Positions 3,026 through 31,153 of a stretch of DNA of 64,000 bases are shown piece after piece; the first letter of the stretch is position 1, and each line of letters opens with the position of its first letter. The translations under genes and the position numbers were made by a program. The DNA lies in IMG/VR virus record IMGVR_UViG_3300027668_001405, positions 62,001 to 126,000 of that record; one strand, 5' to 3'. The notes below the pieces were generated by a model. It saw only the letters and a list, made by a program, of their open reading frames with translations, did no database searches and was not told the DNA's origin. This DNA comes from a virus.

Positions 3026-4072
3026 ATGCATTGGGCCAGACAAGTACATAATTTACAATTAGATATTTCTAGTCATTGTAATGCGGCTTGTGGTGCTTGT
3101 GTACGAAATAAAGATGGAGGAATAACAGAACCTCAACTAAGTCTAGATAATTTTGATGTTGCGTTATGGAAGCGTTTAGCATCAGAAGACACACGTGGCT
3201 GGTATGTAACTAAATTAACATTGAATGGTAATTGGGGTGATCCAATGATGCATCCAGATTTGATTGAGATGTTAGAAATATGGAATTATCATCACCCAGA
3301 ATCTTCGTTGTTTATTGCAACAAATGGAAGTATGCGAAGCAAACAGTTTTGGTTAGATCTTGCTAGAGTTTCTAGACAGTTTCCAAATTCTAAAGTTGAC
3401 TTTGCAGTTGATGGGTTAGCGGATACACATCATTTATATAGAAGAAAAACTATATTCTCTAAGCTAATAGAAAACATAAAACATTTTACAAGTGCCCAAG
3501 GCAATGCATGTATGATGATGACTGTGTTCAAACATAATCAACATCAAATTGAAGATGTAAGAGCATTAGCCGAAGAAACAAAGTGTAGGACATTTGTAGC
3601 AAGACGCAGTCACAGTGACGACATGCACATTAAAACTGATACTGAAGACTACACAATGTATGCTGGAGATACTAAGCAGTACAAGCAACAAACAAGATTT
3701 GATCAAGGTTGGAACAATAGTGATATCCGTGATGCTAGTGTGTATGGTCAAATTAACGAGCAATTTGATACACTATATGAATTTGCAGAGGATAGCAAGT
3801 GTCCTTGGTATAAGGATCAAGAAATACAAATAGACCCTTGGGGTGTTGTATGGCCTTGTTGTCATATAAGTCTACTAGGCGTAGATTTGGATAAACATAC
3901 ATTGACAGATTCAGCAGATAATAGTATAATAGAAGCTAGGAAGTCTAATAACTTGCACAACTATAGTCTGACTGAAGTACTATATAACGAATGGTTCTCA
4001 ACTACTGTACCGAATGCAGTAGAGAATGCATCGTGGCAGATATGTAGAAATAATTGCGGAGTATGTAAATAA
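3026..4072 (+). CDS. Radical SAM protein with C-terminal SPASM-like domain
   Basis: 348 residues. Cys18, Cys22 and Cys25 form the CxxxCxxC site for the SAM-binding [4Fe-4S] cluster right at the N-terminus. The usual GGEP motif is replaced by NWGDP followed by HPD. The C-terminal third has a lone Cys, a CC pair (WPCCHIS) and a closing CRNNCGVC, a SPASM-like auxiliary cluster site. The same layout is seen in the split pair at 17993 and 18609, which looks like this gene cut in two. The ATG directly follows the stop of the amidinotransferase gene. Substrate unknown; SPASM enzymes commonly modify peptides or small amino compounds. Confidence 0.85.
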   Translation: MHWARQVHNLQLDISSHCNAACGACVRNKDGGITEPQLSLDNFDVALWKRLASEDTRGWYVTKLTLNGNWGDPMMHPDLIEMLEIWNYHHPESSLFIATNGSMRSKQFWLDLARVSRQFPNSKVDFAVDGLADTHHLYRRKTIFSKLIENIKHFTSAQGNACMMMTVFKHNQHQIEDVRALAEETKCRTFVARRSHSDDMHIKTDTEDYTMYAGDTKQYKQQTRFDQGWNNSDIRDASVYGQINEQFDTLYEFAEDSKCPWYKDQEIQIDPWGVVWPCCHISLLGVDLDKHTLTDSADNSIIEARKSNNLHNYSLTEVLYNEWFSTTVPNAVENASWQICRNNCGVCK

Positions 4073-5325
4073 TGTATAACAACCCAATGTTAAATGATTC
4101 AAGATATCCAACGTGCTTGGCACCTTGGAATGCTCTTACGATCAAATGGGGTGGAGCAGTACTTCCTGATATTATATACAATGGCAAGTTTGGAAACATT
4201 ACAAGACAAACGCTACCAGAGATATTAAACAGTGACGAAGCAGTTGCATTACGTAAGTCGCATGCAAGTAGAATTATTCCACCTGCGTGTTTAGCATGTA
4301 CTAAGAAAGAGAAAAGTGGTAAGAGTCGTAGAATGTATTTCTGGGACAAACTAGATGTAGATGTTAAAAAGGGCAGTATTAAAAATACAGCTAACAGTAA
4401 GCCAGACATACGTTACTTAGATTTTACTATCAGTAATAAATGTAACCTAGCATGTATACATTGTAATCCATTTGTAAGTACAGGCTGGACTAAAGATGGT
4501 AAAAAGTTAAATAAAGAAAAGCCGGACTATTGGGAACAATCACCTATTGGTTATCATGGCGTTGAAGATATGACGTTTTTGGATAACTTGTTTGCTGACC
4601 CTGAATACTTTCGTAACCTACAATGGGTTGCGTTAAGAGGAGGAGAGCCATTGTATGACGAGAGTTGTAAAGCAATCCTACAATGGTTTATTGACCAAGG
4701 GCTAGCTAAGAACATTATGCTAGATATCAGTACAAATGCTACAGTGTTTGACAATGACTTCCAAGAGATATTTAAGCACTTTAAACACATTGAGCTACTT
4801 ATTAGTATTGAAGCAGTAGACGAACTGTACAGCGTTGTACGTGGAGGTAAGACTACCTCATTTGAGCAACTAGAAGATAACATTGAAAAGTTTTATACAT
4901 ACGATAACATTGAAGTTGTGTTTGCCGTTACAGTAATGATTACAAATATATTTGGATTAGATAAAGTATGGAATTGGTTTAAAGAAAAGCATATGCACAG
5001 AGCTAGTATTAGCATGAGCAATGTTGTAGTTAACCCAGCCTATCTTAATATTGCATATATGCCAGATGTACTAAAATGGATTATGCATGACAAGTTACTA
5101 CAGATACCAGATCAAAGTATTTGGCCTAAGGGTAGCTATCATTCAGATGAGATACATTATCAAACTGGTATCCATGCTATACGTGATGGATTGCAAGTTG
5201 AAGTAGATGAAGAACTACAAGAAAAGCAATGGAGTCATTTTGTTAAATATACTAAAGACCTTGATAGATTACGAGGCACAGATACATTTAAATTAATTAA
5301 GGAATTAGCTTTATACAATGAATAA
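4072..5325 (+). CDS. Radical SAM protein with degenerate N-terminal twitch-like domain
   Basis: 417 residues. The radical SAM core starts late, with Cys124, Cys128 and Cys131 (CNLACIHC) and RGGEP near residue 190. The first 90 residues match the N-terminal twitch-like domain of its paralogs: Cys15 in CLAPW and the pair Cys73/Cys76 (CLAC). The CC doublet that all the other copies have is missing; the equivalent place reads VLPDI. Auxiliary cluster binding may therefore be lost or altered. Start and the previous stop share a base (TAATG), as throughout this operon. Confidence 0.85.
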   Translation: MYNNPMLNDSRYPTCLAPWNALTIKWGGAVLPDIIYNGKFGNITRQTLPEILNSDEAVALRKSHASRIIPPACLACTKKEKSGKSRRMYFWDKLDVDVKKGSIKNTANSKPDIRYLDFTISNKCNLACIHCNPFVSTGWTKDGKKLNKEKPDYWEQSPIGYHGVEDMTFLDNLFADPEYFRNLQWVALRGGEPLYDESCKAILQWFIDQGLAKNIMLDISTNATVFDNDFQEIFKHFKHIELLISIEAVDELYSVVRGGKTTSFEQLEDNIEKFYTYDNIEVVFAVTVMITNIFGLDKVWNWFKEKHMHRASISMSNVVVNPAYLNIAYMPDVLKWIMHDKLLQIPDQSIWPKGSYHSDEIHYQTGIHAIRDGLQVEVDEELQEKQWSHFVKYTKDLDRLRGTDTFKLIKELALYNE

Positions 5326-6265
5326 AATACAATATGGCACAATGGATAAGCCATTATCAATTAATAATCCAGACTTTACAAAAACAGGAAACAGTGTATG
5401 GAATCAACAGTACATGGAATACCTGACAGAAAATTACTTTCCTAATATTGATCCTGCTACACTGCCACAAGAACAAGATACATTCTTAGCAAACTATCCA
5501 AAATGGATTGCTAGTAGTAAGCTGAACAAGTTCAAAGGACTAGATGCATTTAAGCACAGGTTTGTTAGCTTAGGTGTAACACAGGCACTTGACTATTGGC
5601 ACTATTGGTGTCAAGCTAATGGATATAACTTAAAAGTATATAGAGGTGAGTACCCGTACAATAGAGATGCACAAATTAATAACCCAATGGAATGGGGAGA
5701 TAGCATTGATGACATTCCACTACAAAAAGGTGACGCAGTAATAGTAAGTGTTCCGTTTAGTGGTACAGGTAAAAAACCAGAGCATTGGCAAAAACTAATT
5801 AATACATGCAACGACCTTGACATTCCAGTGTTTGTTGATTGTGCATGGTTTGGTACATGTTTTGGTATTGAAATAAACTTAAATGAAGAATGCATTAAGA
5901 TGGTTGCATTTAGTACTACCAAAGGATTAAGTTGTGGAAACTGGCGCAGTGGAATTACTTTCAGTAGAGAAAATAAAGGAAGCCTGGCAGTACAAACAGA
6001 ATGGTATCATGGGATACATCTTAACTTAGCTATTGCTAATAGTTTAATGAAGGAATTTAGTCCTGACACTATTGCAAAGAAATACAAAGAAGCACACGTA
6101 GCAGTATGTGAGCATTATGGGTTTGAAACAACAAATACAGTACACATTGGTATAGCACCCGCAGGCCCAGATTGGGATGCGTATCATAGAGATGGTACTT
6201 ACAATAGAATTAATATTGCTAAAGCAATAAAGCGTTACAAAAACAAAGGCAACTTTTATGAGTGA
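5318..6265 (+). CDS. PLP-dependent aminotransferase-like protein (fold type I)
   Basis: 315 residues. The middle holds VFVDCAWFG, like the D-x-A-[YW] PLP-ring strand of class I/II aminotransferases, and about 30 residues later FSTTKGLSCGNWRSG, like the S-x-x-K...G-x-R-x-G Schiff-base lysine loop. At 315 residues it is shorter than typical 380-400 residue enzymes, and the C-terminal small domain looks trimmed. It overlaps both neighbours by 8 bases. It may make or use an amine that the neighbouring amidinotransferases or radical SAM enzymes process; the substrate is unknown. Confidence 0.65.
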   Translation: MNKIQYGTMDKPLSINNPDFTKTGNSVWNQQYMEYLTENYFPNIDPATLPQEQDTFLANYPKWIASSKLNKFKGLDAFKHRFVSLGVTQALDYWHYWCQANGYNLKVYRGEYPYNRDAQINNPMEWGDSIDDIPLQKGDAVIVSVPFSGTGKKPEHWQKLINTCNDLDIPVFVDCAWFGTCFGIEINLNEECIKMVAFSTTKGLSCGNWRSGITFSRENKGSLAVQTEWYHGIHLNLAIANSLMKEFSPDTIAKKYKEAHVAVCEHYGFETTNTVHIGIAPAGPDWDAYHRDGTYNRINIAKAIKRYKNKGNFYE

Positions 6266-6710
6266 TAAACCTATTAATATTACTACATCTAGATCTAATG
6301 ATTTTCCGATAAGAGCTAATTATATGTTTGACAACATTGGCCCAGGAAATTGTGAAGATATTATTTGGCAAAATGTAGTAGATACAGTAGGCGAAATTGA
6401 ACAGAATGAAATTGGTGTAGGTGTAACTCAAAGTTATCAGTACACAAAATTACATGACAAACCAATTATTTTAACAAAATGGCAAGGTATGAAAACAGCT
6501 AATGGACCCGAGTTTAGAATTGGATTAGGAAAAGGCATACCAGGTAGTAAACAAACTCCACCTATAATGTCTGGAAACTTTAAAACGGGTGTTCAAGTTA
6601 ATAGTACACTATCAATACAATCAGTTAAACTAGGCAGTAGACAAGGTAAGTTTTGTATTCAAACAGATGGTAAATGGTATGCTATTCAAATAGGAGATCA
6701 AGTTGAATAA
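6258..6710 (+). CDS. Unknown protein in radical SAM operon
   Basis: 150 residues, no recognised family, no signal peptide or membrane segment, one internal Cys near residue 30 and one near residue 135. The sequence is rich in Gly, Ile and Thr and ends with beta-prone stretches (GKWYAIQIGDQVE). It overlaps the upstream gene by 8 bases and the downstream one by 8, so it is translated as part of the operon. Confidence 0.6.
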   Translation: MSDKPINITTSRSNDFPIRANYMFDNIGPGNCEDIIWQNVVDTVGEIEQNEIGVGVTQSYQYTKLHDKPIILTKWQGMKTANGPEFRIGLGKGIPGSKQTPPIMSGNFKTGVQVNSTLSIQSVKLGSRQGKFCIQTDGKWYAIQIGDQVE

Positions 6711-7836
6711 ACTACCTGACAATGCATGTGCATATCCTTTTAAGGCAAGTATGTTGATGCATGGTCAACCGGCAACACCTTGTTGCAGATTTCATACTAG
6801 GTTTCTTAAAGGCAATGGGTTTACTGAAATACGTGAAACAATGATGCGTAATGAATGGCATCCAGGATGTTACAAATGTAAGTCAGATGAAGAAGTTAAA
6901 GGTAGCAGTATGAGAACTGAAGCTGACGAATTCTTTGATGACTTTGATGACGTAGTACGTTTAGAGTACTTAGAAATAACTGTAGGCAGACTTTGTAATT
7001 TAGCATGTCTAAGTTGTGGTAGTGATTTTAGTACTACATGGGATAAAGATGAACTTGCATTAGGCATTAGTTCACCAGAGAAGATTAGCAAATTAAAAGA
7101 AGTACAGGAATACGATTTAGATAACATGGACCTAGATAATTTAAAACATATTAAGTTTATAAAAGTAACTGGTGGAGAACCGTTCTTGCATAAGCAGTTT
7201 TTAAATTTACTAACTAGACTAGCAGACAGTGGATTAGCTAAACAAATAGACATAGAAATATTTACAAATTGTACATACTATCCAGAGAAGAAGCTAGAGC
7301 TTGATAGCTTACTAGCGTTCAAACTAATACACATAAGTCCTAGTATTGATGGATATGGAACTACAAACGACCTCTTAAGATACCCTTCTAAGTGGAATAA
7401 AATTGAGGCAACACTTGACAAGTGGATAGAGCTAAAAGTAGCTACAGGACGCTTACACATAGCCACAGCCACCACTGTAAGCGTTATTAACGCCCCACAG
7501 CTACATGAGTTCATACATTGGGCGAGAATACATAAAGGAATAGATGTCGTGTTACAGACGGTATTTGAGCCACATTATTTAAGCGTAGAGCATTGGCCAA
7601 ATTGGTTCAAGCGTACACTAAAGTTAACAATTGATCAACAGTACACAGGCTTTAATAAGAACGCAGGTAAGTTTAAAGCTAGTCATAAACTATTAAAACA
7701 GTTATGTGAAACAAATACTACAACAGATAAGAGTGTACAATACGTAATAGAATTAAAGAAGATGCTGTCACATAGAGGGCAAGATATTAACATGGCACCT
7801 AAGTTTGCTAAGATATTGGAGTATCATGAAAGATAA
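6703..7836 (+). CDS. Twitch-type radical SAM protein
   Basis: 377 residues from a TTG start placed 6 bases after AGGAG (6692-6696); no ATG is available upstream of the first conserved Cys. N-terminal auxiliary site: Cys9, Cys27-Cys28 and Cys56/Cys59. Radical SAM core: Cys98, Cys102, Cys105 (CNLACLSC) and GGEP near residue 158. The order, twitch domain first and core second, is the reverse of common SPASM enzymes and matches what I recall of the NCBI family for twitch-containing radical SAM proteins. Substrate unknown. Confidence 0.85.
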   Translation: MNKLPDNACAYPFKASMLMHGQPATPCCRFHTRFLKGNGFTEIRETMMRNEWHPGCYKCKSDEEVKGSSMRTEADEFFDDFDDVVRLEYLEITVGRLCNLACLSCGSDFSTTWDKDELALGISSPEKISKLKEVQEYDLDNMDLDNLKHIKFIKVTGGEPFLHKQFLNLLTRLADSGLAKQIDIEIFTNCTYYPEKKLELDSLLAFKLIHISPSIDGYGTTNDLLRYPSKWNKIEATLDKWIELKVATGRLHIATATTVSVINAPQLHEFIHWARIHKGIDVVLQTVFEPHYLSVEHWPNWFKRTLKLTIDQQYTGFNKNAGKFKASHKLLKQLCETNTTTDKSVQYVIELKKMLSHRGQDINMAPKFAKILEYHER

Positions 7837-9061
7837 TAAAGAATTAAAAAAGAGTGAGACATTCTGTATGTTACCATTTATGCATATATATGGAACAGCA
7901 GGTGGCGACTTAGTGCCGTGCTGTGAAGCACAGGAAACTCCATTAAACAACCCAGGCGAGACAGCTCTAGAAAGTTGGAACAACGACAACTACAAAGAAC
8001 TAAGACGTGCTTTATCAAATGACGAAAGACCAGATCGCTGTGAAGTGTGCTGGCACAATGAGGACAGTGGAGTAGTAAGCAATCGCAAGCAATGGGAAGA
8101 CGACAATTGGGAAACGTTTTCTAATGAGATAGAAGTTAATGACGATTGGAGTGTTAACAATTCACCTAAGTGGGTGGAACTAAAAGTAAGTAATTTTTGC
8201 AACCTAAAATGTATTATGTGCAGTACGCATAGTAGTTACAAGCGTGTTAAAGACTTAGACATTATAAGCAAGTACACAGCAGATGGATATGAAACTAGAC
8301 TTTTACGCCCAACTACTTTATTTGCAAGTTTAAATGAATGGCCCGAGTTATGGGAAAATGTTCATACACTACAATTTACAGGTGGAGAACCAATTATTAA
8401 CCAAGAGCATTATGACTTGCTTGAAGGGATACCTAAAGACATACGAAAGAATATAAAGTTACGTTACGCTACAAACCTAAGCATGATTAAGTTTAAGAAA
8501 TATGACTTAGTAGAAATATGGAACGAGTTTGCCGCTGTAAATATTAAAGTAAGCATGGACGGCATCGAAGACGTGTACAATTATATTAGACAAGATGGTG
8601 ATTGGGATACAGTATATGCTAACATGCTAGTACTGAGCAGTGAACCTACAATTAATTTAGCAGTAGGCATTACAGTACAATCACATAACGTATTTCATAT
8701 GCCAGAGTTTTATGACTTCTGGGCAGACAATATAGTTAAGCTAGATTTTATTACAGCTAACGTATTACACACACCTAAGTATTTAAGTCCAGCACTTTGG
8801 CCTGCTAACGTTAGGAAGCCTATAGTTGATAAGTTAAAAGAAGCATTGCCCAGACACCCAGAAATGAGAAAGTTTATTACTTACATGTTAAGAAATAAAC
8901 CAAATGCATTGAACTATTCAAAGATGCGTAAGTATACCAGAGATTTAGAAGCACGATATCCTAAAGAAATTACATTAAAAAGTATGCTTAAAAAGTATCT
9001 TAAAATAAAACTAGAAGGCATGGACATAGTTGATGAGAGGTTGAAGAATGAAAAAAGGTGA
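7826..9061 (+). CDS. Twitch-type radical SAM protein
   Basis: 411 residues from the ATG at 7826, chosen because GGAG lies just upstream and the start overlaps the previous stop like its neighbours; a TTG 21 bases earlier is less likely. Auxiliary site Cys14 (FCMLPF), Cys32-Cys33, Cys72/Cys75; core Cys125, Cys129, Cys132 and FTGGEP near residue 187. Close in layout to the proteins at 13612, 18928 and 20587, with which it shares the FCxxPFxH opening. Confidence 0.87.
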   Translation: MKDNKELKKSETFCMLPFMHIYGTAGGDLVPCCEAQETPLNNPGETALESWNNDNYKELRRALSNDERPDRCEVCWHNEDSGVVSNRKQWEDDNWETFSNEIEVNDDWSVNNSPKWVELKVSNFCNLKCIMCSTHSSYKRVKDLDIISKYTADGYETRLLRPTTLFASLNEWPELWENVHTLQFTGGEPIINQEHYDLLEGIPKDIRKNIKLRYATNLSMIKFKKYDLVEIWNEFAAVNIKVSMDGIEDVYNYIRQDGDWDTVYANMLVLSSEPTINLAVGITVQSHNVFHMPEFYDFWADNIVKLDFITANVLHTPKYLSPALWPANVRKPIVDKLKEALPRHPEMRKFITYMLRNKPNALNYSKMRKYTRDLEARYPKEITLKSMLKKYLKIKLEGMDIVDERLKNEKR

Positions 9062-10334
9062 AAAGGATTGGGACTATCAATTTGTAAGTGATTGCGAAAT
9101 TGTGAATGTCTTTATTCCTAAGAATACTCACCTATCAGGTCACGAAGAATTAAAACAAAAGCTATTGTTATTACAGCAAGTTGAGTGTGATAATCACTTG
9201 ACATCAAGCATAGTTAACCTGTATAATACAAGTAGTATTGAGTGGATTGAACACGTTAGAAAAATGGGACACAAGTATGTTGCATTTTGGTTTGATGGCT
9301 GCTGGCCTAAATCAGATGGCATTGAAAAGAAAATACTAACATACATTAATAGACTTGAGAAGAAAGATTGGGTAACCGCAGTGCATCCAAAGTACTTGGA
9401 TAGTTTAATGTTATTGAACATTGACGAGTTTATTGCTTGGCCTGCTAAAGCACCTAACTTTGGAACATACGCATTTTGGGCAGAGAATTGGATTAGTGAT
9501 TGTACTGTAGAGTTAAGCAAAACTATAGAAAGAAACATTGTAGTTGGTGCTCCACAATCAGACCCACAGAACTTTTTAAATGGATTAATGGATAAGAAGT
9601 ATACAGACCACACAATATCCAGAGGCGCTAGAGTTATTATTAAACGTAAGAATATACCTAGCAGTCCTATATACTTTGTTAACACAGAACGCAGTAGCCC
9701 AACAGTAGCAGATGCAATAAAACACACAGTATTCAAGCAGTATGTAGGCGCAGTGGCTGGTTTTAAGCTTCTATACTACGCTTACACGTACGGTATTGAT
9801 ATAGACAGCACTAAGTTCGTCTGGTATGATTTCGACGCAAACAGCGTACAATTTAAGCGTGACACTATTAAAAATTGGGATGGAAATGACTATCCTACAT
9901 GGGTTAAGGAATGGGTACACGCACATCCAGAAGCAAATGCAGAATTACTAAAACACGTTGATAAAGAATGGTTAAATATAGTAAAGCAATTCGGCGGAAA
10001 GCAACAGTGGTTAGACTTCTGGGTTCAAGTACAGATGTGTGAACATGAGTTTCTTACTGTTGACTTAGTTAATAATCACAAGGAAATAACAGACAGATTA
10101 GTTAATGGTGCAAGTACATTCTTTTGGAGCAGTAACATATACAGCTATGTATTGCTAAAAGTAATAAGCAAACCATTTACATTAGAACGCAGTTTTGCAG
10201 AGTTAATCACAAGGCTACAACAAATAGAAACATGTTGGTTCTCAGGCACTGATCCCAATGACAACGATTTAACATGTGATGTTAAATGGATTCTAGGATA
10301 CAGTACTAATGACAGCATAGGAACAGGAATATGA
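9048..10334 (+). CDS. Large unknown protein, paralog of the next gene
   Basis: 428 residues, soluble, no Cys cluster. Family not recognised. It shares its plan with the 460-residue product of the next gene: an N-terminal segment on a predicted alpha/beta domain (KYVAFWFDGCW here, RLAVLWAEGN there), a DWVTA/EWATA segment, and a C-terminal half with FVWYDFDANSVQF versus VIWADFSTYAINW followed by W-x-G-x-D. The latter looks like strands beta4-beta5 of a Rossmann-type fold, so a methyltransferase or nucleotide-sugar-like enzyme is possible but unproven. Confidence 0.6.
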   Translation: MKKGEKDWDYQFVSDCEIVNVFIPKNTHLSGHEELKQKLLLLQQVECDNHLTSSIVNLYNTSSIEWIEHVRKMGHKYVAFWFDGCWPKSDGIEKKILTYINRLEKKDWVTAVHPKYLDSLMLLNIDEFIAWPAKAPNFGTYAFWAENWISDCTVELSKTIERNIVVGAPQSDPQNFLNGLMDKKYTDHTISRGARVIIKRKNIPSSPIYFVNTERSSPTVADAIKHTVFKQYVGAVAGFKLLYYAYTYGIDIDSTKFVWYDFDANSVQFKRDTIKNWDGNDYPTWVKEWVHAHPEANAELLKHVDKEWLNIVKQFGGKQQWLDFWVQVQMCEHEFLTVDLVNNHKEITDRLVNGASTFFWSSNIYSYVLLKVISKPFTLERSFAELITRLQQIETCWFSGTDPNDNDLTCDVKWILGYSTNDSIGTGI

Positions 10335-11713: not shown

Positions 11714-12564
11714 TACCAATGCCAGAAGCAAAGTCAATTGAGGAAATTGAACAAGAACAACATCATCATCAAGAGTTCCTTGATAAACGTAAGATACTTG
11801 AATACAAACATCATTTGTATCCTGAAGTAAACAAGCGTTGTAAAGACTTTATACAAAAATGGGGCGACAGTACAAAAGAACCTACTCGAGCAGATACAGA
11901 GCATGCACAAGGTCGCTTAGAAGAAGATTTTGAAGATGCCAATACAATTATTGATAATACTAGGCTACCTTGGGTACCAGTAAACATTTCAGTACCATGG
12001 AAGGACATTTGGTTAGAAGCTAGGCACTTGTTATACACCGAGTGCTTTACACCACACAGAACTGACGGCAGTGCAGGTTGGCTTAGTTTATGTATACATG
12101 GCATGTCGTCTGTGCATACAAACTGTGCAGAAGATTATAACTTGCCAGACGAAGCAGAAGAAGAATTAAGCGAATGGACAGACATAGCAAAGTTCTGCCC
12201 AATTACAGTTGAGTGGATGAAAGATGCAATGTTGTATGAGCAGTTTACTCGTGTAAGATTTATGTGTGTATTACCGGGTGGCTGGATTGAGCCTCACCGA
12301 GACACAGACAAAGTAGCTGGATTAGGTGCAACTAATGTTGCTATCAACAATCCAGATGGATGTAGACTAATTATGGAACAATATGGCGAGCTACCATTTA
12401 CACCTGGATCTGTTTTTAAAATAAATACTGGATATAATCATATGGTATATAATGATAGTAACGAGCCACGTTTTCATATGATATTTGACGGTCGACCAGA
12501 TGACACGTTTAAAAGGAAAGTAAACACTCAATATAATTGGATGTTCGACAAAAAGAAGAAATAA
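11704..12564 (+). CDS. Aspartyl/asparaginyl beta-hydroxylase-like 2OG-Fe(II) oxygenase
   Basis: 286 residues with a His-rich acidic N-terminus (EQEQHHHQ). The C-terminal half carries GGWIEPHRDTDK, giving the first iron His and acidic ligand, then VAINNPDGCRL, and NHMVYNDSNEPRFHMIFD with the distal His and the 2-oxoglutarate-binding Arg. This is the order found in the Asp/Asn (and proline) hydroxylase family. Likely hydroxylates a peptide side chain or a small molecule made by the island. An overlapping start after GGAG couples it to the gene before. Confidence 0.75.
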   Translation: MDIVPMPEAKSIEEIEQEQHHHQEFLDKRKILEYKHHLYPEVNKRCKDFIQKWGDSTKEPTRADTEHAQGRLEEDFEDANTIIDNTRLPWVPVNISVPWKDIWLEARHLLYTECFTPHRTDGSAGWLSLCIHGMSSVHTNCAEDYNLPDEAEEELSEWTDIAKFCPITVEWMKDAMLYEQFTRVRFMCVLPGGWIEPHRDTDKVAGLGATNVAINNPDGCRLIMEQYGELPFTPGSVFKINTGYNHMVYNDSNEPRFHMIFDGRPDDTFKRKVNTQYNWMFDKKKK

Positions 12565-12566
12565 TT

Positions 12567-14838: not shown

Positions 14839-14856
14839 TAGAAAGGGGAGAACAAC

Positions 14857-15537: not shown

Positions 15538-15546
15538 AGACACACT

Positions 15547-16110
15547 ATGAGAATAATTGCAACAGGAAACCCTAACTTTGGCGTAGCAAGTGCTATCGCT
15601 GAACGATGGCCAGAAACTACATTTGTTAATAGAACAGATTGGGGCTACGATTTATGCCAAGATGGATACAAAAAGAAGCTAGCAGAAAAGACTCTTAACT
15701 ATGACGTCTTTATTAACTGTTCCGCACTATGGCAGTACCACCAAACTCTCCTACTAGATGTAGTCTATAAAAACGCTTTAAAGAACCGTAAACGACTACA
15801 TATAGTTAGTTTAGGTAGCACTACTGACCGGGCCACTAAAGGCTCTGATTGGCACTATCAGCAAGAAAAGAAAGCGTTACGTAGTACAAGCAACGCATTG
15901 GGCTTAAAAAGCATATGGGCAGGCGGTCCTAAGGTAAGTTATGTTACATTTGGAACACTTGAGAACAATGCACACAAGCACCCAGGTAGAGCTGTAATGC
16001 AACTAAGTGAAGCAGTAGATATGATTGAATATGTAATTAGTCTTCCAGATCATTTAAACCTAAATGAAATAAGCATGGACCCAATACAAACAGAGTGGCC
16101 GAATGTCTGA
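15547..16110 (+). CDS. Short-chain dehydrogenase/reductase-like protein
   Basis: 187 residues, shorter than the usual 250. The start MRIIATGNPNFGVASAIAER has a Rossmann beta-alpha start with a TG-x(3)-G-x-G-like loop (TGNPNFG), there is an NCSAL stretch like the NNAG strand, then a Ser in IVSLGST and YQQEKKAL giving the Y-x-x-x-K pair. The Ser-Tyr-Lys order is that of classical SDRs. Overlaps the next gene by 8 bases. Confidence 0.65.
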   Translation: MRIIATGNPNFGVASAIAERWPETTFVNRTDWGYDLCQDGYKKKLAEKTLNYDVFINCSALWQYHQTLLLDVVYKNALKNRKRLHIVSLGSTTDRATKGSDWHYQQEKKALRSTSNALGLKSIWAGGPKVSYVTFGTLENNAHKHPGRAVMQLSEAVDMIEYVISLPDHLNLNEISMDPIQTEWPNV

Positions 16111-17281
16111 AGATAAAATGTGCTACATGCCTTGGCACGGAATTACGCTGAGTGCTAATGGCGATATTAAACCTTGTTGTCAATTTAGTAACAAAGGACG
16201 TAGACCTAATACTGAACACGACACTATTATGGAAAACTTTAATAGTGAACGTATGCAAGAATTACGTGGACAGTTTCTAATAGGTGAACAACCTAAAGCA
16301 TGTAACAGTTGTTGGGAGAGAGAAGACTTAGTAGGCAAGAGTAGACGCTTATGGTTCAATGAAAAGTTTATGAAAGACGACGAAGCTTTTCAACAAGGAT
16401 ACAACCCGTCAGACCTAGTAGTACCTAATCCTAAATTATATCAAGCAGATATTAACTTGTCAAACGTATGCAATTTGAAGTGTCGTATGTGTGGAAGTTG
16501 GGCCAGTAACAGTTGGTTCAAAGAAGAAATAGCACTAGCAAAAATAGACAAACGTTATGAGAAGAATGAACGTGTTGTTCCAATACAACAATACGACTTA
16601 GAAGATTTACGCAATATGCTACCTCACTTGAAAGAAGTCAAACGTATAGACTTCAAGGGTGGCGAGCCTATGATGGCAAAGCATCACAATCAATTCCTGC
16701 AATGGCTTATTGAAGAAGATATGACAGACATAGAATTGTTTTACACTACCAACGGAACAGTACAGAATCCTAAAATTATGGACTTGCTCAAACACTTCAA
16801 ACGTGTTAGTATATGTTTTAGTATAGAAGGTACTGGAGATTTATATAGATACATCAGAGGCGGTAGGTATGACATAGAAGGTTTTGAAAAATGCGTAGCA
16901 GTTTACGACAAATTAGAAAACGTACAAATTATGTTTAATGTAACATTACAGAACTATAACGTATTCAACTTGCCTGAACTACATGAGTTTTTACACGATT
17001 TAGAAGATAAATATAACAGAGTAAGTGCTAAACATAGTTTTGGTACAATCTGTAATAAACCTGCTTACCTAAGCCCAATTAATTTACCAGACGATTTACG
17101 TGATCAAGCAGTTGAGCGTTTATCATTATATGAAGATTTCGACCAATTGGTAAAGAGTATGAATAAGCGTGTATTCGACCCAGAACTATGGGAAGTGTTT
17201 ATTAACTTTACTAACGACCTAGACAAAATGCGAGGAGACAGTGTGTTAAAATCTGTGCCTGAGCTAAAGGATCATTTTTAA
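16103..17281 (+). CDS. Twitch-type radical SAM protein
   Basis: 392 residues. Auxiliary site Cys7 (CYMPW), Cys25-Cys26, Cys67/Cys70; core Cys123, Cys127, Cys130 (CNLKCRMC); here the SAM motif reads FKGGEPMM. The ATG lies inside the end of the SDR-like gene. Confidence 0.87.
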   Translation: MSEDKMCYMPWHGITLSANGDIKPCCQFSNKGRRPNTEHDTIMENFNSERMQELRGQFLIGEQPKACNSCWEREDLVGKSRRLWFNEKFMKDDEAFQQGYNPSDLVVPNPKLYQADINLSNVCNLKCRMCGSWASNSWFKEEIALAKIDKRYEKNERVVPIQQYDLEDLRNMLPHLKEVKRIDFKGGEPMMAKHHNQFLQWLIEEDMTDIELFYTTNGTVQNPKIMDLLKHFKRVSICFSIEGTGDLYRYIRGGRYDIEGFEKCVAVYDKLENVQIMFNVTLQNYNVFNLPELHEFLHDLEDKYNRVSAKHSFGTICNKPAYLSPINLPDDLRDQAVERLSLYEDFDQLVKSMNKRVFDPELWEVFINFTNDLDKMRGDSVLKSVPELKDHF

Positions 17282-18000
17282 TGCTAGTAGGAATTGAAGA
17301 CAACCATGCACCCAAAGACGAGTTACTTCGAGTAGAATGGAACTTAGGCAAACGTTGTAACTATAACTGTAGCTACTGTGGTAACGAACTACATAACAAG
17401 ACAAGCGACCATATGAATTGGGAAGTGTACACAGCTACAATTGATAAAATTGTTGCGGCAGCTAATGGCAAGAAGATTAAAATTAGTTTTACAGGTGGGG
17501 AACCATTTGTACATCCACAATTTATTGATATGATGAAGTATGCTAAAGAGAATGGCGTATACAGATTAAGTGTAACTACCAACGGAAGTCCACCACCAAA
17601 GATATATAAGAAAGCATTGCCGTACTTGCATTACGTAGTAATAAGCTACCACTTTGAATTTGCTTACCACGACAAAGTTATTAATAACATTGTAGGCATG
17701 TGGTCAGACATTCAAGAGTATCGCAAGCAAGATCAGTGGAAAGGTATGCACGTACACATTATGGCACTACCTGGAAAGCTAGCACAATGGCAAGAGATTA
17801 TAACAGAATTAAAAGACTGTGGAGTTGAATATACAATACGTAAAATTAGACCACGTGTTAACATGGCTCGAACAGGCTGGAACAAACCACATCAAGATGG
17901 AATGTTAGGGCAACACCCTACTCACGAAGAAACCGAGAAGTATGCAGGACAATATTATAGTCCGGAAGAAGAGGAATGGCTTACTGCCCAAAATGCTTAA
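17281..18000 (+). CDS. Short radical SAM protein without auxiliary domain
   Basis: 239 residues. Core Cys26, Cys30, Cys33 (CNYNCSYC) and FTGGEPFVHP near residue 64. It resembles the N-terminal 230 residues of the radical SAM protein at 21875, but lacks that protein's C-terminal Cys-rich domain. A free-standing copy of such a domain is encoded at 20228, so the two may work together. The TAATG junction couples it to the previous gene, and its own stop overlaps the next start in ATGCTTAA. Confidence 0.83.
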   Translation: MLVGIEDNHAPKDELLRVEWNLGKRCNYNCSYCGNELHNKTSDHMNWEVYTATIDKIVAAANGKKIKISFTGGEPFVHPQFIDMMKYAKENGVYRLSVTTNGSPPPKIYKKALPYLHYVVISYHFEFAYHDKVINNIVGMWSDIQEYRKQDQWKGMHVHIMALPGKLAQWQEIITELKDCGVEYTIRKIRPRVNMARTGWNKPHQDGMLGQHPTHEETEKYAGQYYSPEEEEWLTAQNA

Positions 18001-18619
18001 TCAATCAGATGACAAATTGGAAATTGAACTAACTAGCAAGTGTGCATTACAATGCCCAGCTTGTGCAAGAGTGACACAATCTGATATGAAACAAGAATGG
18101 GATGCAGGACATTTAAGCAAAGAATTATTATTTAGAATATGTGACACTACAAACTTTCATAGATATCAATTTGTAGGTTGTTACGGAGATCCTATATACC
18201 ATCCTGACTTTTTGGAAATATGTAAATATTTTATGGCAGCAGGTAAGAAGATACTAGTGCATACAAATGGTAGTGCAAAGCCAGAAAAGTTTTGGAAGGA
18301 AGCAGCAGACATAGTTTGGAAAGGATGTATATTTACATTCAGCGTTGATGGACTAGAAGATACTAACCACATATATCGTAAGGGTTCTAAGTGGAAGCAA
18401 ATATTAACAGCAATGAAATATATGGCTAGTATACCTAGAGAAAACAGACCAACATTAGAATGGAAGTTTTTAGTATTCCCATACAATAAGCATCAAATAG
18501 AAGAAGCACGTACACTAGCAAACGAGCTAGGGTTTACAAAGTTTGAAGCATGGGATAGTTATAGAAATGCTAATTCTTATAACGTACCAGCAGAGGAGCT
18601 TCATAACTATGTTTCATAA
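17993..18619 (+). CDS. Radical SAM protein, core half of a split SPASM enzyme
   Basis: 208 residues from the ATG at 17993, chosen because it overlaps the previous stop (ATGCTTAA) and leaves the core Cys17, Cys21, Cys24 (CALQCPAC) at the same distance from the N-terminus as in the 348-residue homolog at 3026. Both share GDP...HPDF in place of GGEP, the SVDGLEDTNHIYRK segment and NKHQIEEAR. The protein stops where the homolog continues into its SPASM part, and the next gene supplies that part in another frame. Confidence 0.8.
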   Translation: MLNQSDDKLEIELTSKCALQCPACARVTQSDMKQEWDAGHLSKELLFRICDTTNFHRYQFVGCYGDPIYHPDFLEICKYFMAAGKKILVHTNGSAKPEKFWKEAADIVWKGCIFTFSVDGLEDTNHIYRKGSKWKQILTAMKYMASIPRENRPTLEWKFLVFPYNKHQIEEARTLANELGFTKFEAWDSYRNANSYNVPAEELHNYVS

Positions 18620-18938
18620 GAATTTAGATCCTCAGTGTAGAAAAGAGAACATGCAGGAAAAGAATAATATTCAGCTTAGTGCTACTGGTTATTTAAAACC
18701 TTGTTGTTTTTATGGTACAAGCATTAACTGGAAACAGCTAATGACATGGGCAGACAATCGAGGACTTGATATAGAGAATTTGAATATTACTAAACATAGT
18801 GTAGAGAAGATATATAACTCTCCATTATGGGCAAACATGTTGCTAGGACAAGTTACAGGCGACTTACCAACTCCATGTTGGGACCTGTGCAGAGTTAATA
18901 GCACAAATAAAATAGATGTAAAAAAACATGCAAAATAG
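18609..18938 (+). CDS. Free-standing SPASM-like domain (other half of split enzyme)
   Basis: 109 residues from the ATG at 18609, which overlaps the previous stop by 11 bases and lies in the +1 frame. It holds Cys9, a CC pair in YLKPCCFYG and a closing CWDLC, matching the C-terminal auxiliary-cluster region of the protein at 3026 (WPCCHIS...CRNNC). No radical SAM core of its own. Probably a partner that gives the preceding protein its auxiliary cluster. Confidence 0.75.
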   Translation: MFHKNLDPQCRKENMQEKNNIQLSATGYLKPCCFYGTSINWKQLMTWADNRGLDIENLNITKHSVEKIYNSPLWANMLLGQVTGDLPTPCWDLCRVNSTNKIDVKKHAK

Positions 18939-20235
18939 AGACCACGAACAACTAGCAATAAAGGAAGCTAAGGCCTGGTTACTCGAGCCTGGTAATAACT
19001 TCTGTGCTATGCCGTTTATACATATGGCAATTGAAGCCACTGGCGACATACGTCCATGTTGCATGGGCAAGCCTTTAGAAGGAATGAGTATAATAGGTAG
19101 TACAGTTGCAGAACAGTTCAGGTCTCCAATAAGAGAAGAGTTTGTAGAAAAATTTAGAAACAATTCAAAGCCAGCTGAGTGTTCAGCGTGTTGGAAAGAT
19201 CCTTTTATTAGAGCAAAGTTTTCAACCTCACCTGGAGCATTATCATCTACAATAAATTTTATGAACACTGGATCTATTGAGAAAGAACTAATATGGTTAG
19301 AGATTAAGCCGGGCAATAGATGTAATTTAAAGTGCAGGATATGTGGAGTACACAACAGTAGTGCATGGGCAAAAGATGCTAACTCATTACGCAATTTTAA
19401 ATTTGGCGAGAATGTTCCTTTTAAAGAAAGTGAAGCATTCCAAGTAACACAAGCTGGCGAGTGGATTGAAGATGAAAACTTCTGGACTCAACTGTCTGGA
19501 TTTGAGTCTATTGAGTTTTTACATTTTATGGGCGGAGAACCTTTTATGGTACCTGAACATTTTCAAATGCTAGAACACCTGGTTGCAATGCCACACTTGG
19601 ATACATCAAGAATAACGTTAGCTTACAATACAAATGGCACATATTTTCCTAGCGAAGAGAACTTAGAACTATATAAGAATTTTAAGAAAGTACATATGTC
19701 ACTAAGTATAGACGACTTTGGACCTAGATTTGAATATCAACGTAAACTAGCTGAATGGGACCAAGTAAAAGAGAACCTTAGAAAGTTTGCTTTATTAGGA
19801 GAAGATGATAAGTTCTTTGTTAATCTAGATCCTACTGTAAGTAACTATAACATATTTTACATGGCAGAGATTTGGGACGAGTTCACTAAACTTGGCTTTA
19901 GGTTTCAAAGAGGTGGATTGAATCATTTTGTATTTACTGGTCCAGATGCAATTATTAATATTCCAGTTGAGATGAAGAAAATAATAACTGATAAATATGA
20001 GTATGCACGTACAAATACAGGACTTGTTGAAGCCTATACAGTGTCAGCAATAGATTACATGAATAGTCAAAGACCAAATCCTGAAGCTTGGAGTGACTTC
20101 ATAAATAAAACTATGCACTTGGACAGTATCAGAAAAGAATCGTTTGAACAGACGTTTCCAGAGATGCATGCACTAATAAAGGGTACAGATGGTTTTAAGA
20201 GACAGATGGCTATAATGGAATCCATGAATGAATAA
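18928..20235 (+). CDS. Twitch-type radical SAM protein
   Basis: 435 residues, the longest copy. Auxiliary site Cys26 (FCAMPF), Cys44-Cys45, Cys85/Cys88; core Cys132, Cys136, Cys139 (CNLKCRIC); FMGGEPFM near residue 207. It has a 12-residue N-terminal extension relative to most copies. Starts 11 bases inside the previous gene. Confidence 0.87.
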   Translation: MQNRDHEQLAIKEAKAWLLEPGNNFCAMPFIHMAIEATGDIRPCCMGKPLEGMSIIGSTVAEQFRSPIREEFVEKFRNNSKPAECSACWKDPFIRAKFSTSPGALSSTINFMNTGSIEKELIWLEIKPGNRCNLKCRICGVHNSSAWAKDANSLRNFKFGENVPFKESEAFQVTQAGEWIEDENFWTQLSGFESIEFLHFMGGEPFMVPEHFQMLEHLVAMPHLDTSRITLAYNTNGTYFPSEENLELYKNFKKVHMSLSIDDFGPRFEYQRKLAEWDQVKENLRKFALLGEDDKFFVNLDPTVSNYNIFYMAEIWDEFTKLGFRFQRGGLNHFVFTGPDAIINIPVEMKKIITDKYEYARTNTGLVEAYTVSAIDYMNSQRPNPEAWSDFINKTMHLDSIRKESFEQTFPEMHALIKGTDGFKRQMAIMESMNE

Positions 20236-20590
20236 TTTTAAAAACTTAATCAAGCACTATGATGATAAACCGTCTGAAGAGGATAACGCAAACAATGTTA
20301 TGGCTCGTGATGAGAATGATTTCCGTGGATGGGAATGTTGGGCAGGAGTACAAAACATTACTATTAGTAATACGGGAGATGTGTACAGAGCAATATGTAA
20401 AGTGGGTGGTAAACTTGGAAACATTTATGATGGATTTGAGATGCCCCAAGAAACAATTATATGTAATAAGCCTAGATGTATTTGTTCAGCAGATGTGCAG
20501 TTATCTAAAGCGTTACCAGAGCACGTACATAAATTAAGAATAGGCAATGAATCAAACCAATTAAACTTTGATGACATATATAGATCATGA
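20228..20590 (+). CDS. Free-standing SPASM-like domain
   Basis: 120 residues. The middle part (GWECWAGVQNITISNTGDV, then GNIYDGF, then C-x(3)-RCIC and SADVQL) aligns with the C-terminal 90 residues of the radical SAM protein at 21875 (GWECSSGYRSIIIREPDGS, GNIETGF, CTTDSCVSSAD). Thus it is the auxiliary domain alone, without a CxxxCxxC core. A likely partner is the domain-less radical SAM protein at 17281. Overlaps both neighbours by 4-8 bases. Confidence 0.7.
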   Translation: MNNFKNLIKHYDDKPSEEDNANNVMARDENDFRGWECWAGVQNITISNTGDVYRAICKVGGKLGNIYDGFEMPQETIICNKPRCICSADVQLSKALPEHVHKLRIGNESNQLNFDDIYRS

Positions 20591-21885
20591 ACAATTATAA
20601 CAAATTTAAAGAACGAGCAATAGGCAAGCTACATGGGATGCCAGTAGACAAAGAAACATTTTGTCCACTACCATTTGTACATGTTAGCACAATGCCACAT
20701 GGTGAAGTTAAACTATGTTGTAGAGCTCAACCACCTAAGAACGGAACAAACCCTAACGTTAAGAATCCTGAGTTTAATCTTAAAGATTATTGGCACAGTG
20801 AATATATGAATGAGGTGCGTGATGACTTAATATTAGGTGTAAAGAATTCACAGTGTAGTAATTGCTGGAAGATGGAAGACAACGAAATTGTTAGTTTACG
20901 TATGAATAGAATTACTGACTTAATGGACAACGATACATACAAACAGAATATAAACAAGTACCTAGTAGAACGTGAAGTAGATTTTAGTATTCCACTAATT
21001 GAACTTAAACTAAGCAACGTGTGCAACTTTAAGTGTCGCATGTGTTGGCCAAAGGATAGTTCAAAGTGGGTAACAGACTGGGATAAAGTTTCTAAATTTT
21101 ACAGTGAAGGCGACCAGCGTTACATAGAAGAGATTGTAGATAGCAACGGCCTACGTAAATCTAGGGTAATGAATTTATATGAGAAGGATAAAGACTTTGT
21201 TGATCAATTACTTGAATTGATGTCAACAGTTGAAGAAATAGAATTTGCCGGAGGCGAACCATTAATGGATCCAATACATTATCGTGTATTAAACAACATA
21301 CCAAATCCTGAGAATGTTACACTAAAATACAGCACAAACCTAAGCATTATGAAGATGGGCAAAAACAACGTAATTGACTTGTGGAAGAAGTTCAAGAGCA
21401 TTAAACTTACAATTAGCATAGATGGATATAAAGATCTTAATGCTAAAATTAGACGTGGTGCTGACTGGGACCTACTAAAGCATAACATTGCACTTGTTAA
21501 AGAGCATTGTCCTAACATAGATGTAATCAAAGGATCAACATGTATTAGCGGTATGAACGCAGAAGACTTGGGCAAAACAGCTGAAGCTATTGTGTTTGAA
21601 TTAGGTATACATTGGCACACAAGTCGTGTACAATGGCCCGATTTTTTACATGCTAACGTATTAAGCCCTGTACAACTAAAACGCGGTATTGATAGCTTAC
21701 AGACGCTCTTAGACACCCTGCCGGGGCGTGATAACGTACCCAGACAGTTTATGATGGAAACACATATTAAAGGTGCAATGAGCTGGTTAGAGTCATGTAT
21801 AGAGAAAAACGAACACCACAACAAATACACAAAATTTACTGAATTTAATGCAAAAATAACGGAGATGGATACAAATGGAAAATAA
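20587..21885 (+). CDS. Twitch-type radical SAM protein
   Basis: 432 residues. Auxiliary site Cys26 (FCPLPF), Cys44-Cys45, Cys90/Cys93; core Cys146, Cys150, Cys153 (CNFKCRMC); the SAM motif reads FAGGEPLMDP. Its closest relative by eye is the protein at 7826: both have the YSTNLSIMK / YATNLSMIK segment and similar C-termini. Confidence 0.87.
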   Translation: MNNYNKFKERAIGKLHGMPVDKETFCPLPFVHVSTMPHGEVKLCCRAQPPKNGTNPNVKNPEFNLKDYWHSEYMNEVRDDLILGVKNSQCSNCWKMEDNEIVSLRMNRITDLMDNDTYKQNINKYLVEREVDFSIPLIELKLSNVCNFKCRMCWPKDSSKWVTDWDKVSKFYSEGDQRYIEEIVDSNGLRKSRVMNLYEKDKDFVDQLLELMSTVEEIEFAGGEPLMDPIHYRVLNNIPNPENVTLKYSTNLSIMKMGKNNVIDLWKKFKSIKLTISIDGYKDLNAKIRRGADWDLLKHNIALVKEHCPNIDVIKGSTCISGMNAEDLGKTAEAIVFELGIHWHTSRVQWPDFLHANVLSPVQLKRGIDSLQTLLDTLPGRDNVPRQFMMETHIKGAMSWLESCIEKNEHHNKYTKFTEFNAKITEMDTNGK

Positions 21886-23062
21886 AGAAGACTTGAAATG
21901 GAGCGAATATGACTTTACTAAAACACCATACGATAAGTTGGTGCGTGTGGGTCAGCGTAATATTCTGTACCGCGACATGTTTACTGTTAGTTGGTTGCTT
22001 GGCCGTTTTTGCAACTATAATTGTAGCTACTGTTGGCCTTACGCTAGGAGTGGTAAAAAAGATCACAGACCTACTGAACTAAATTTAAAGACTATTGATG
22101 AGATTAAACGTCAAGCACGTGAACGTGGATTTAATAGTTTCCACTTTAGTCTAAGTGGAGGCGAACCAACTTTCCATCCAGGCTACTTAGACATGTTAAA
22201 GCATCTAAGTGATGATGCACATAACACAAACTATACAAGTGTACACATGACATCAAATTGTAGTCGTAATATGAAATGGTTTAAGACATATTGTGAATAC
22301 GCAAGTAAATTCCATCGTGCAAGTATTACAGCTAGTTTGCATACTGAACATGTTAACACACCTGAGAAGATGCAAGACTTGGCAGAGAAATTAATCATGT
22401 GTCAAGAACATGATGTACAGGTAACTATTAACATGGTTATGGTTCCTGATCTATTCCAAGAATATTATGATAATGCATTATTTTATCATAACCAAGGAAT
22501 TAACGTTACGCTAAAACCTCAATCAGATCCAACAGCAAGTAAAATTGTAGATGGTTACACACCTGAGATGTTAGCTAAGTTGCACAACGGTATGCCACAA
22601 CGTAGTTACACAGAAGCTAAAGCACAACATAAGCAGTTAGTGGTTAGACCTAAGCCTACATTTAAAATTGATAAAGACGATCATTATCGTAAGCAAACAG
22701 CGGCAGTGCCGTGGAATATGCAAGTAGAATTTAGAGACGATAAAGGTGATCCATATTACATGGACCAAGCAGAACGTTTTAATGCGTTTAACTTTAATAA
22801 GTTTAAAGGGTGGGAATGTAGTAGTGGATATCGTAGTATTATTATCCGTGAACCTGATGGAAGTGTGAAGCGTAGTTATAGCTGTCACGATCAACCTCTA
22901 GGTAACATTGAAACAGGATTTAAGTTGTTTGATGGACCTAAGGTGTGTACAACAGATTCATGTGTTAGTAGTGCAGATAGTAAAATCCCCAAACGAGCGC
23001 CGGGGACTAAGTTGCCTTTATGGCCAGGTGATAAAACATATGAGCATGGAACGTTTGACTAA
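21875..23062 (+). CDS. Radical SAM protein with C-terminal SPASM-like domain
   Basis: 395 residues. Core Cys46, Cys50, Cys53 (CNYNCSYC) and LSGGEPTFHP near residue 95. The C-terminal 90 residues carry GWEC, SCHD and CTTDSC, a Cys-rich auxiliary domain that also exists alone at 20228. Last gene of the plus-strand island; its stop is one base from the stop of the convergent SprT-like gene and no terminator hairpin is evident. Confidence 0.85.
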   Translation: MENKEDLKWSEYDFTKTPYDKLVRVGQRNILYRDMFTVSWLLGRFCNYNCSYCWPYARSGKKDHRPTELNLKTIDEIKRQARERGFNSFHFSLSGGEPTFHPGYLDMLKHLSDDAHNTNYTSVHMTSNCSRNMKWFKTYCEYASKFHRASITASLHTEHVNTPEKMQDLAEKLIMCQEHDVQVTINMVMVPDLFQEYYDNALFYHNQGINVTLKPQSDPTASKIVDGYTPEMLAKLHNGMPQRSYTEAKAQHKQLVVRPKPTFKIDKDDHYRKQTAAVPWNMQVEFRDDKGDPYYMDQAERFNAFNFNKFKGWECSSGYRSIIIREPDGSVKRSYSCHDQPLGNIETGFKLFDGPKVCTTDSCVSSADSKIPKRAPGTKLPLWPGDKTYEHGTFD

Positions 23063-25934: not shown

Positions 25935-25965
25935 AATTAATCTCCTATGCGTTATCCTTCTTCAA

Positions 25966-25973: not shown

Positions 25974-25974
25974 A

Positions 25975-31132: not shown

Positions 31133-31153
31133 TAGCTATTTCAAACTATTTGG

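Follow-up and report, generated by a model that had tools for sequence, protein, structure and literature searches.

A radical SAM-rich operon of T4-like phages that shares its core with Bdellovibrionota chromosomes

The abundance of radical SAM (rSAM) genes in certain phage genomes has been puzzling since 2010. Campylobacter phages CP220 and CPt10 carry interchangeable clusters with five rSAMs and a glycine amidinotransferase (Timms 2010, PMC2853527); the module lies near tail genes, undergoes modular exchange and includes nucleotide-sugar-transferase-like genes. The T4-like marine genome TARA_ERS488813_N000010 combines 12 rSAM genes with an A-type carrier (Nishimura 2017, PMC5332604), and the pelagimyophages, likewise T4-like and marine, bear exchangeable rSAM cassettes near tail genes, within their host recognition cluster, for which no pathway was described (PMC7029224).

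The locus analysed here belongs to a 137.8-kb record from a large marine bacteriophage, of which positions 62001-126000 form the window, a stretch of 64,000 nucleotides; coordinates are those of the window unless given as record positions. Its phage context includes a T4-type DNA polymerase (53009-55702). The window resembles CP220/CPt10, a distant T4-like relative, in its tight run of rSAMs with an amidinotransferase (24% identical), but it has 12-15 rSAMs rather than five, and the Campylobacter rSAMs are only about 20-30% alike and are not the core trio considered below. A search for orthologs in the CP220/CPt10 module order yielded none, the matches (~20-30%) being to rSAMs in general, and the available excerpt of the CP220/CPt10 description does not mention MetK, a nucleosidase or other support genes. 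TARA_ERS488813_N000010 shares with the window many rSAMs accompanied by Fe-S assembly genes; it is set apart by description only, the portion of its account at hand containing no operon, core module, MetK or adenine-recycling genes. A BLAST search of pelagimyophage HTVC008M returned no homolog of the rSAM core. The initial annotation had ranked the region as its leading candidate for an undescribed system, which holds only in part. Phage rSAM clusters were already published (PMC2853527, PMC5332604), but two elements are new here: a core of two orphan proteins and three rSAMs shared with Bdellovibrionota, and the rSAM upkeep genes carried by the virus (SAM synthetase, Fe-S assembly, nucleosidase, APRT and PRPP synthetase). 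The operon genes in the window, and one rSAM outside the operon, are as follows.

12-1019, plus strand: second pentein, amidinotransferase-like, 402 aa (true start at record 61811, upstream of the window); alignable with amidinotransferases, with conserved GGH.D and GG.HC; phrog_25854
1067-1945, plus strand: conserved orphan, 2OG/cupin-like oxygenase by eye; 61-79% identity in 13 of 15 relatives, where its homologs lie on the minus strand; no match in Pfam or in a PDB profile search
1958-3025, plus strand: amidinotransferase-like pentein, catalytic His/Asp/Cys kept; PDB profile matches HsvA (9e-30), SxtG, StrB1 and AGAT
3026-4072, plus strand: rSAM of C-terminal SPASM type; one or two copies in relatives
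4072-5325, plus strand: rSAM with N-terminal twitch (N_Twi_rSAM), NF033640 250 bits; in 15/15 relatives
5318-6265, plus strand: PLP aminotransferase-like, PF00155 9e-6, invariant lysine loop ST.KG; in 15/15 relatives; no match in a PDB profile search
6258-6710, plus strand: 150-aa protein, patchy among relatives
6703-7836, plus strand: N_Twi rSAM, NF033640 222 bits; in 15/15 relatives
7805-9061, plus strand: N_Twi rSAM, NF033640 311 bits; in 15/15 relatives
9048-10334, plus strand: conserved orphan, in 15/15 relatives; poor fold model (pLDDT 56) with no PDB match
10331-11713, plus strand: adjoining conserved orphan, from comparison with relatives
11704-12564, plus strand: aspartyl/asparaginyl hydroxylase-type 2OG oxygenase, PF05118 7.5e-11; in 14/15 relatives
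12537-13619, plus strand: N_Twi rSAM, PF04055 9e-14, NF033640 196 bits
13588-14838, plus strand: rSAM with N-terminal SPASM/twitch, PF04055 and PF13186
14857-15537, plus strand: nitroreductase-family protein, PF00881 4e-5; in few relatives
15547-16110, plus strand: small Rossmann-type protein, SDR-like by eye, no Pfam match; 32-41% homologs in Bdellovibrionota clusters
16103-17281, plus strand: rSAM with N-terminal SPASM/twitch, PF04055 1e-11, PF13186 7e-8
17281-18000, plus strand: rSAM core only, PF04055 6e-15; its missing C-terminal domain is resembled by ORF 20228-20590
17942-18619, plus strand: rSAM core, first half of a split pair, PF04055 3e-10
18543-18938, plus strand: C-terminal Fe-S (SPASM-like) half of the pair; split identical in locus L199, analogous in L201 and a 183.8-kb contig
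18928-20235, plus strand: rSAM with N-terminal SPASM/twitch, PF04055 4e-12
20228-20590, plus strand: free-standing C-terminal domain, Cys-rich and similar to that of 21875; 77-87% in relatives
20587-21885, plus strand: N_Twi rSAM, NF033640 297 bits
21875-23062, plus strand: core rSAM and last gene (record 83875), 54-66% identical and intact on Bdellovibrionota chromosomes (alignment, tree)
56163-57395, minus strand: rSAM outside the operon, CX3CX2C, PF04055 1.6e-11

The twelve intact-site rSAMs in one direction that had been noticed at 3026-23062 are borne out: all are on the plus strand, and the profile search then proposed places all 12 in the radical SAM superfamily by CX3CX2C and PF04055 (11 at the DNA level, E 1e-8 to 1e-16). 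ORF 3026 matches PF04055 at the protein level (E 6e-8), and 6703 is just under the Pfam cut-off at that level and above that of NF033640. This latter family of twitch radical SAM proteins, a name without assigned function (curated cut-off 170), was scanned against nine operon rSAMs; five pass (4072, 6703, 7805, 12537, 20587) and four fall outside (3026, 17281, 17942, 21875). Starts and stops overlap nearly throughout, as first described, at 18 of 20 junctions, the remaining two being gaps of 9 and 18 nt, and the coding fraction is 0.9987. Scans for promoters and terminators found no signal exceeding that in shuffled controls. The aminotransferase-like, 2OG oxygenase and nitroreductase-like proteins do lie between the rSAMs, and the SDR-like protein keeps its label by eye without a Pfam match to back it; the amidinotransferases, however, lie just upstream. 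Nor does the run begin at 3026: the operon starts at record 57168, and the extension adds three rSAMs, a nucleosidase, two amidinotransferase-like proteins and one oxygenase-like protein, for about 15 rSAMs in 28 kb (the full record has 23 rSAM ORFs). From its invariant GGH.D and GG.HC motifs and PDB profile matches down to 9e-30, the product of 1958-3025 belongs to the AGAT/StrB amidinotransferase family as a putative enzyme, with a Pfam ADI score under the cut-off. A programmed frameshift was rejected for the split rSAM pairs, which are kept as two ORFs with frames -1, +1, -1, +1 and are thus two genes. Prokaryotic viperin (pVip) and a defence role were also discarded, the best NF038283 score being 63.9 bits (17281) against a cut-off of 180.

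The same gene set had been proposed for a search of other phage contigs, and 15 related viral loci carry it in the same order, with pairwise dN/dS values of 0.02-0.29 that indicate purifying selection. The 183.8-kb relative contig is syntenic with the record, and the rSAM complement changes step by step between phages. One 58-aa ORF is present in three loci only. That the region could be a bacterial cluster misjoined to a phage contig is an idea to which the chromosomal location of part of the pathway in bacteria lends something; phage genes nevertheless flank the operon in constant order in many assemblies, including the 183.8-kb contig, and the tree of rSAM 83875 groups phage sequences apart from bacterial ones. 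Decaying copies are likewise at odds with the dN/dS range. We therefore exclude chimera and decay on the constant order in 15 viral loci and on purifying selection, and regard either as extremely improbable. A 108-kb contig labelled 'Gammaproteobacteria MED685' was rejected as bacterial; it is a T4-like phage.

The core common to phage and Bdellovibrionota chromosomes consists of a GT-A protein (record 17255), an orphan (17946) and rSAMs 21061, 57168 and 83875. The latter two, the rSAMs that open and close the operon, have homologs of 49-66% identity in Bdellovibrionota, which adjoin each other in all 13 loci inspected; the system is therefore not purely phage. Neither 17255 nor 83875 had a match among 50,697 deposited phages. 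Maintenance of the operon in other phages, together with the core on bacterial chromosomes, thus argues for a real, working pathway, and the multi-enzyme phage pathway of the initial annotation is strongly supported as real and selected. The core also forms short chromosomal operons in bacteria, so its chemistry could be tested without a phage isolate. The minimal such operon, at locus L321, comprises homologs of the GT-A protein, 57168, 83875 and 21061.

The model of 17255 (pLDDT 90.7, DXD kept) has as leading PDB fold matches only GT-A glycosyltransferases (RmlT, SunS, a mannosyltransferase and WrtF; E 5e-5), and the PBCV-1 capsid glycosyltransferase is also among its matches; TM-scores are low (0.35-0.44), and we therefore confidently predict a GT-A glycosyltransferase fold with DXD at class level only. 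PDB profile searches with 17255 and 17946 gave no match. In bacteria, the core trio adjoins two GT2 transferases at one locus (L312) and Bac_transf and Polysacc_synt_2 at another (L316), and is near epimerase-like and GT2-like ORFs, by eye, at a third (L319); the neighbourhoods at L317 and L321 contain no glycan genes. The rSAM clusters of other phages adjoin NodU-type carbamoyltransferase, cytidylyltransferase, DegT aminotransferase, Gfo/Idh and epimerase genes; one such cluster, in a T4-like phage, is next to genes for tail and baseplate proteins. The record itself encodes a carbamoyltransferase, a UDP-sugar dehydrogenase and an epimerase. This gene context favours a sugar or glycan as product, and our tentative but leading proposal is a multi-rSAM pathway tailoring a glycan or sugar moiety on the virion (tail) or infected cell surface. 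The GT-A transferase, its partner 17946 and rSAMs 21061, 57168 and 83875 would be the pathway core, to which phages would add the amidinotransferase, oxygenases, PLP-type and nitroreductase-like enzymes and many twitch/SPASM rSAMs; the tailored glycan may then alter recognition. The sugar substrate, the order of steps and the place and purpose of the product are what we infer here. Should the product indeed be a glycan, both its sugar chemistry and this way of tailoring a phage surface would be new.

SPASM/twitch rSAMs are known above all for modifying peptides and proteins, which counts against a glycan. The rSAMs, the Asp/Asn hydroxylase-type oxygenase and the amidinotransferase could instead modify a virion protein (tail fibre, adhesin) or a RiPP-like peptide, as the PF05118 hydroxylase inside the operon, the PDB profile matches of 57168 (SkfB alone, weak) and 83875 (including anSME) and the tail/baseplate genes beside the cluster in one T4-like phage would suggest. 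We consider this unlikely, though a serious contender: the window operon has no room for a RiPP precursor, no small ORF is kept across relatives, and the recurring neighbours are the GT-A protein and sugar-nucleotide genes. Rather improbable is a small-molecule pathway, for instance to a guanidino compound or cofactor during infection. The kinship of the amidinotransferase with HsvA, SxtG and StrB1, the PLP-like, oxygenase and nitroreductase-like enzymes, and a Paenibacillus cluster where a cellular twitch rSAM accompanies acyl-carrier- and ketosynthase-like genes (by eye) are compatible with it, but the bacterial core loci lack the amidinotransferase and the operon has no recognised release, export or carrier genes. 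The PLP protein, despite an empty pattern scan of bacterial genomes, has 29-32% homologs within those core loci. Hypermodification of DNA is frequent in phages and can involve rSAM, PLP and transferase enzymes; such a role for the operon seems more improbable still, as FolE, QueD and QueE-like genes for 7-deazaguanine, separate in the record, can account for DNA modification, and the core is found on bacterial chromosomes.

The glycan-tailoring proposal is accompanied by support genes, most of them above curated cut-offs, with which the phage may run rSAM chemistry in a small marine cell. Those in the window are as follows.

30117-31064, minus strand: PRPP synthetase, NF002320 453 bits (cut-off 297)
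33468-33914, minus strand: ribose-5-phosphate isomerase B, TIGR01120 over cut-off
34336-34761, minus strand: A-type Fe-S carrier, TIGR00049 69 bits (cut-off 59), PF01521
34728-35273, minus strand: adenine phosphoribosyltransferase (APRT), NF002636 166 bits (cut-off 125)
36246-37508, minus strand: IscS cysteine desulfurase, TIGR02006 707 bits (cut-off 643), SAHK and SACTSS loops intact
37462-37836, minus strand: NfuA/NifU C-terminal domain, PF01106 3e-20
38509-38799, minus strand: MIP18/PaaD-type Fe-S assembly protein, PF01883 5.5e-17

The virus also encodes SufE and MetK (methionine adenosyltransferase; TIGR01034 421 bits, cut-off 309; GHPDK kept). MetK would supply SAM; IscS, SufE and the NfuA-, A- and MIP18-type proteins would assemble Fe-S clusters; the operon nucleosidase may cleave 5'-deoxyadenosine; and APRT with PRPP synthetase would return adenine to AMP. 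The nucleosidase belongs to PF01048, with catalytic residues that look kept by eye, and scores below the NCBIfam equivalog cut-offs for MTA/SAH nucleosidase. From these genes it seems that a virus is able to provide most of what an expensive cofactor system needs for its maintenance, a point of relevance to phage reprogramming of metabolism in small marine cells. More speculatively, one glycan-building module, so far undescribed, may be common to T4-like phages of the sea and certain predatory Bdellovibrionota. Several rSAMs would act in series on a single sugar product, and in the phages the module would have grown to at least a dozen of these enzymes, run during infection with the help of an almost closed cofactor loop (SAM synthesis, Fe-S assembly, 5'-deoxyadenosine recycling). 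MetK is associated with rSAM-rich phages overall (p = 0.004); without the window's own phage group p = 0.07, and as a marker it is thus only suggestive. In two phage groups the nucleosidase gene is internal to the run of rSAMs, and in one of these groups MetK adjoins it.

The twelve radical SAM (rSAM) ORFs that the initial annotation had placed in one direction between window positions 3026 and 23062 were all recovered, on the + strand and each with a CX3CX2C motif and a PF04055 match, and their tight joining was borne out (18 of 20 junctions overlap and genes fill 99.87% of the interval). The bounds hold only in part: the run does cover this interval, but its true start lies upstream, at record 57168, and the added stretch encodes three more rSAMs, a PF01048 nucleosidase, two amidinotransferase-like penteins and an oxygenase-like orphan. 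The whole 137,797-base record, of which the window spans bases 62001-126000, contains 23 rSAM ORFs, and it comes from a phage, with a T4-type DNA polymerase whose nearest counterparts are in large myophages (for example Phosso and Atu_ph07). In three rSAMs the core and the C-terminal Fe-S part are encoded by two overlapping ORFs, a split kept in relatives:

Record 2168-3147: core ORF plus C-terminal Fe-S ORF
Record 37638-38617: core ORF plus C-terminal Fe-S ORF
Window 17942-18938: core ORF plus C-terminal Fe-S ORF

When IMG/VR was scanned, one rSAM as query returned 13 loci and an orphan operon protein 21, the two sets sharing some contigs. Across 15 compared loci, some cut at contig ends and a few near-copies of one another, gene order is kept (oxygenase-like, amidinotransferase, rSAM, rSAM, PLP, rSAM, rSAM, orphan, orphan, hydroxylase, rSAM, rSAM, SDR-like). 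The N_Twi rSAMs 4072, 6703 and 7805, the PLP aminotransferase-like 5318 and the orphan 9048 occur in 15/15 loci and most remaining genes in 11-14, while the gene content of the 3' part and the copy number of SPASM-type rSAMs like 3026 vary. Among relatives dN/dS is 0.02-0.29, and a 183.8-kb contig represents a long syntenic genome with the same operon. Three relatives carry between two operon genes a 58-59 aa protein (84-88% alike) that is absent from the window:

L009, 11239-11415: 58-59 aa protein
L012, 12020-12199: 58-59 aa protein
L013, 11251-11430: 58-59 aa protein

The system had been proposed as undescribed, which needs qualification, since multi-rSAM phage clusters are already published. 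Like this operon, clusters in Campylobacter phages combine several rSAMs with an amidinotransferase (PMC2853527), and a T4-like genome from Tara data resembles this phage in its many rSAMs, 12 in that case (PMC5332604); for neither is a product given. What is new is the operon and its conservation, the core that this phage shares with Bdellovibrionota, the GT-A assignment of one core protein and the support set as a whole; we found no description of these in the open-licence papers searched.

The core consists of a GT-A protein (record 17255), the orphan 17946 and rSAMs 21061, 57168 and 83875 (the last being window gene 21875-23062). A twitch-rSAM profile scan of bacterial and archaeal genomes matched chiefly assemblies of Bdellovibrionota and Bacteroidota; in many of them several rSAMs are grouped, and some have close homologs of individual phage rSAMs. 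Among 291 genomes sampled from the phylum to which one profile match belongs (labelled Bdellovibrionia), 15 have a 57168 homolog (51-64% identity). An 83875 homolog (54-66%) lies within 20 kb of it in all 13 bacterial loci inspected, one truncated at a contig end; homologs of 21061 (39-43%), the GT-A protein and the orphan occur in 10, 9 and 7 of the 13, respectively. These bacterial copies are chromosomal, because the four-gene run of L321 (GT-A, 57168, 83875, 21061) is flanked by ordinary chromosomal genes and L316 sits on a 1.6-Mb contig. In our phage the three rSAMs are dispersed, 57168 and 83875 being the first and last operon genes and 21061 lying elsewhere, around record 21 kb, with 17255 and 17946 close by. 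The core is compact in contig G017, with 24 rSAMs in 76 kb, and in a T4-like phage from a mislabelled assembly (L217, L323-L327). In the 83875 tree, phage sequences separate from bacterial ones (support 100/100); in the 57168 tree, the phage sequence is nested within them. Neither 83875 nor 17255 has a match among 50,697 deposited phages. The virus contig G017 (L328-L330) also carries MetK, an amidinotransferase homolog and more CX3CX2C proteins outside the twitch family. The mislabelled contig (G074:C3, 108 kb) had been binned as a Gammaproteobacterium, an assignment we reject: it is a T4-like phage, carrying portal and baseplate genes, and its rSAM/glycan island adjoins tail genes.

As to the product, a glycan is our best guess, a tentative one that falls just short of probable, on account of the 17255 model, the amidinotransferase matches and the sugar-gene neighbours. 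The predicted structure of 17255 (pLDDT 90.7, pTM 0.86) matches a GT-A glycosyltransferase-type protein: such enzymes head its PDB list (E 5e-5, TM-score 0.35-0.44), and the DXD motif is kept. In the amidinotransferase the catalytic residues are intact, and profile searches match it to HsvA, SxtG, StrB1 and AGAT. Neighbours include GT2 transferases, Bac_transf and Polysacc_synt_2 beside the bacterial core, and NodU-type carbamoyltransferase, cytidylyltransferase, DegT, Gfo/Idh and epimerase genes in other phages; a Halobacteriovorax twitch rSAM adjoins carbamoyltransferase-, GmhA- and cytidylyltransferase-like genes (named by eye). A NodU/TobZ-type carbamoyltransferase (record 4009-5517) lies distant from the operon, and its homolog adjoins the rSAM cluster in other phages.

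The support set comprises MetK, IscS, an A-type carrier (TIGR00049), APRT, PRPP synthetase and RpiB, all over curated cut-offs, and, by Pfam, SufE, an NfuA/NifU domain, a MIP18/PaaD-type protein and a PNP_UDP nucleosidase. Several of these genes overlap: SufE with MetK (by 4 nt, as also in contigs L082, L095 and L098), the A-type carrier with APRT, and IscS with the NfuA-type gene. The nucleosidase is embedded in the rSAM run of this record, of three relatives and of further phage clusters that also enclose MetK; MTA/SAH nucleosidases split 5'-deoxyadenosine, a candidate role for the phage enzyme. Of 13 operon-bearing contigs, many of them fragments, 8 carry MetK, as does 1 of 21 polymerase-matched controls, which include fragments of close relatives; outside the window's own phage group, MetK and rSAM density are weakly associated. 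Environmental viral contigs often carry MetK (327 confirmed stretches in IMG/VR); of 80 IMG/VR loci (L026-L105), 17 have an APRT homolog at a distance of no more than 10 kb.

The record also holds 7-deazaguanine genes (PTPS/QueD, GTP cyclohydrolase I, QueE-like) and a candidate that resembles a DpdA transglycosylase by eye, with neither a Pfam nor a PHROG match:

Window 39629-40150: 7-deazaguanine gene
Record 30485-31171: 7-deazaguanine gene
Record 40002-40793: 7-deazaguanine gene
Record 25106-26602: DpdA-like candidate

A TctA-type transporter subunit (PF01970) stands beside a TctC-like protein, recognized by eye, at record 7821-10407, with homologs in the 183.8-kb relative, and a ring-hydroxylating oxygenase is weakly matched at window 24852-25934, with a fatty acid desaturase at window 42737-43462.
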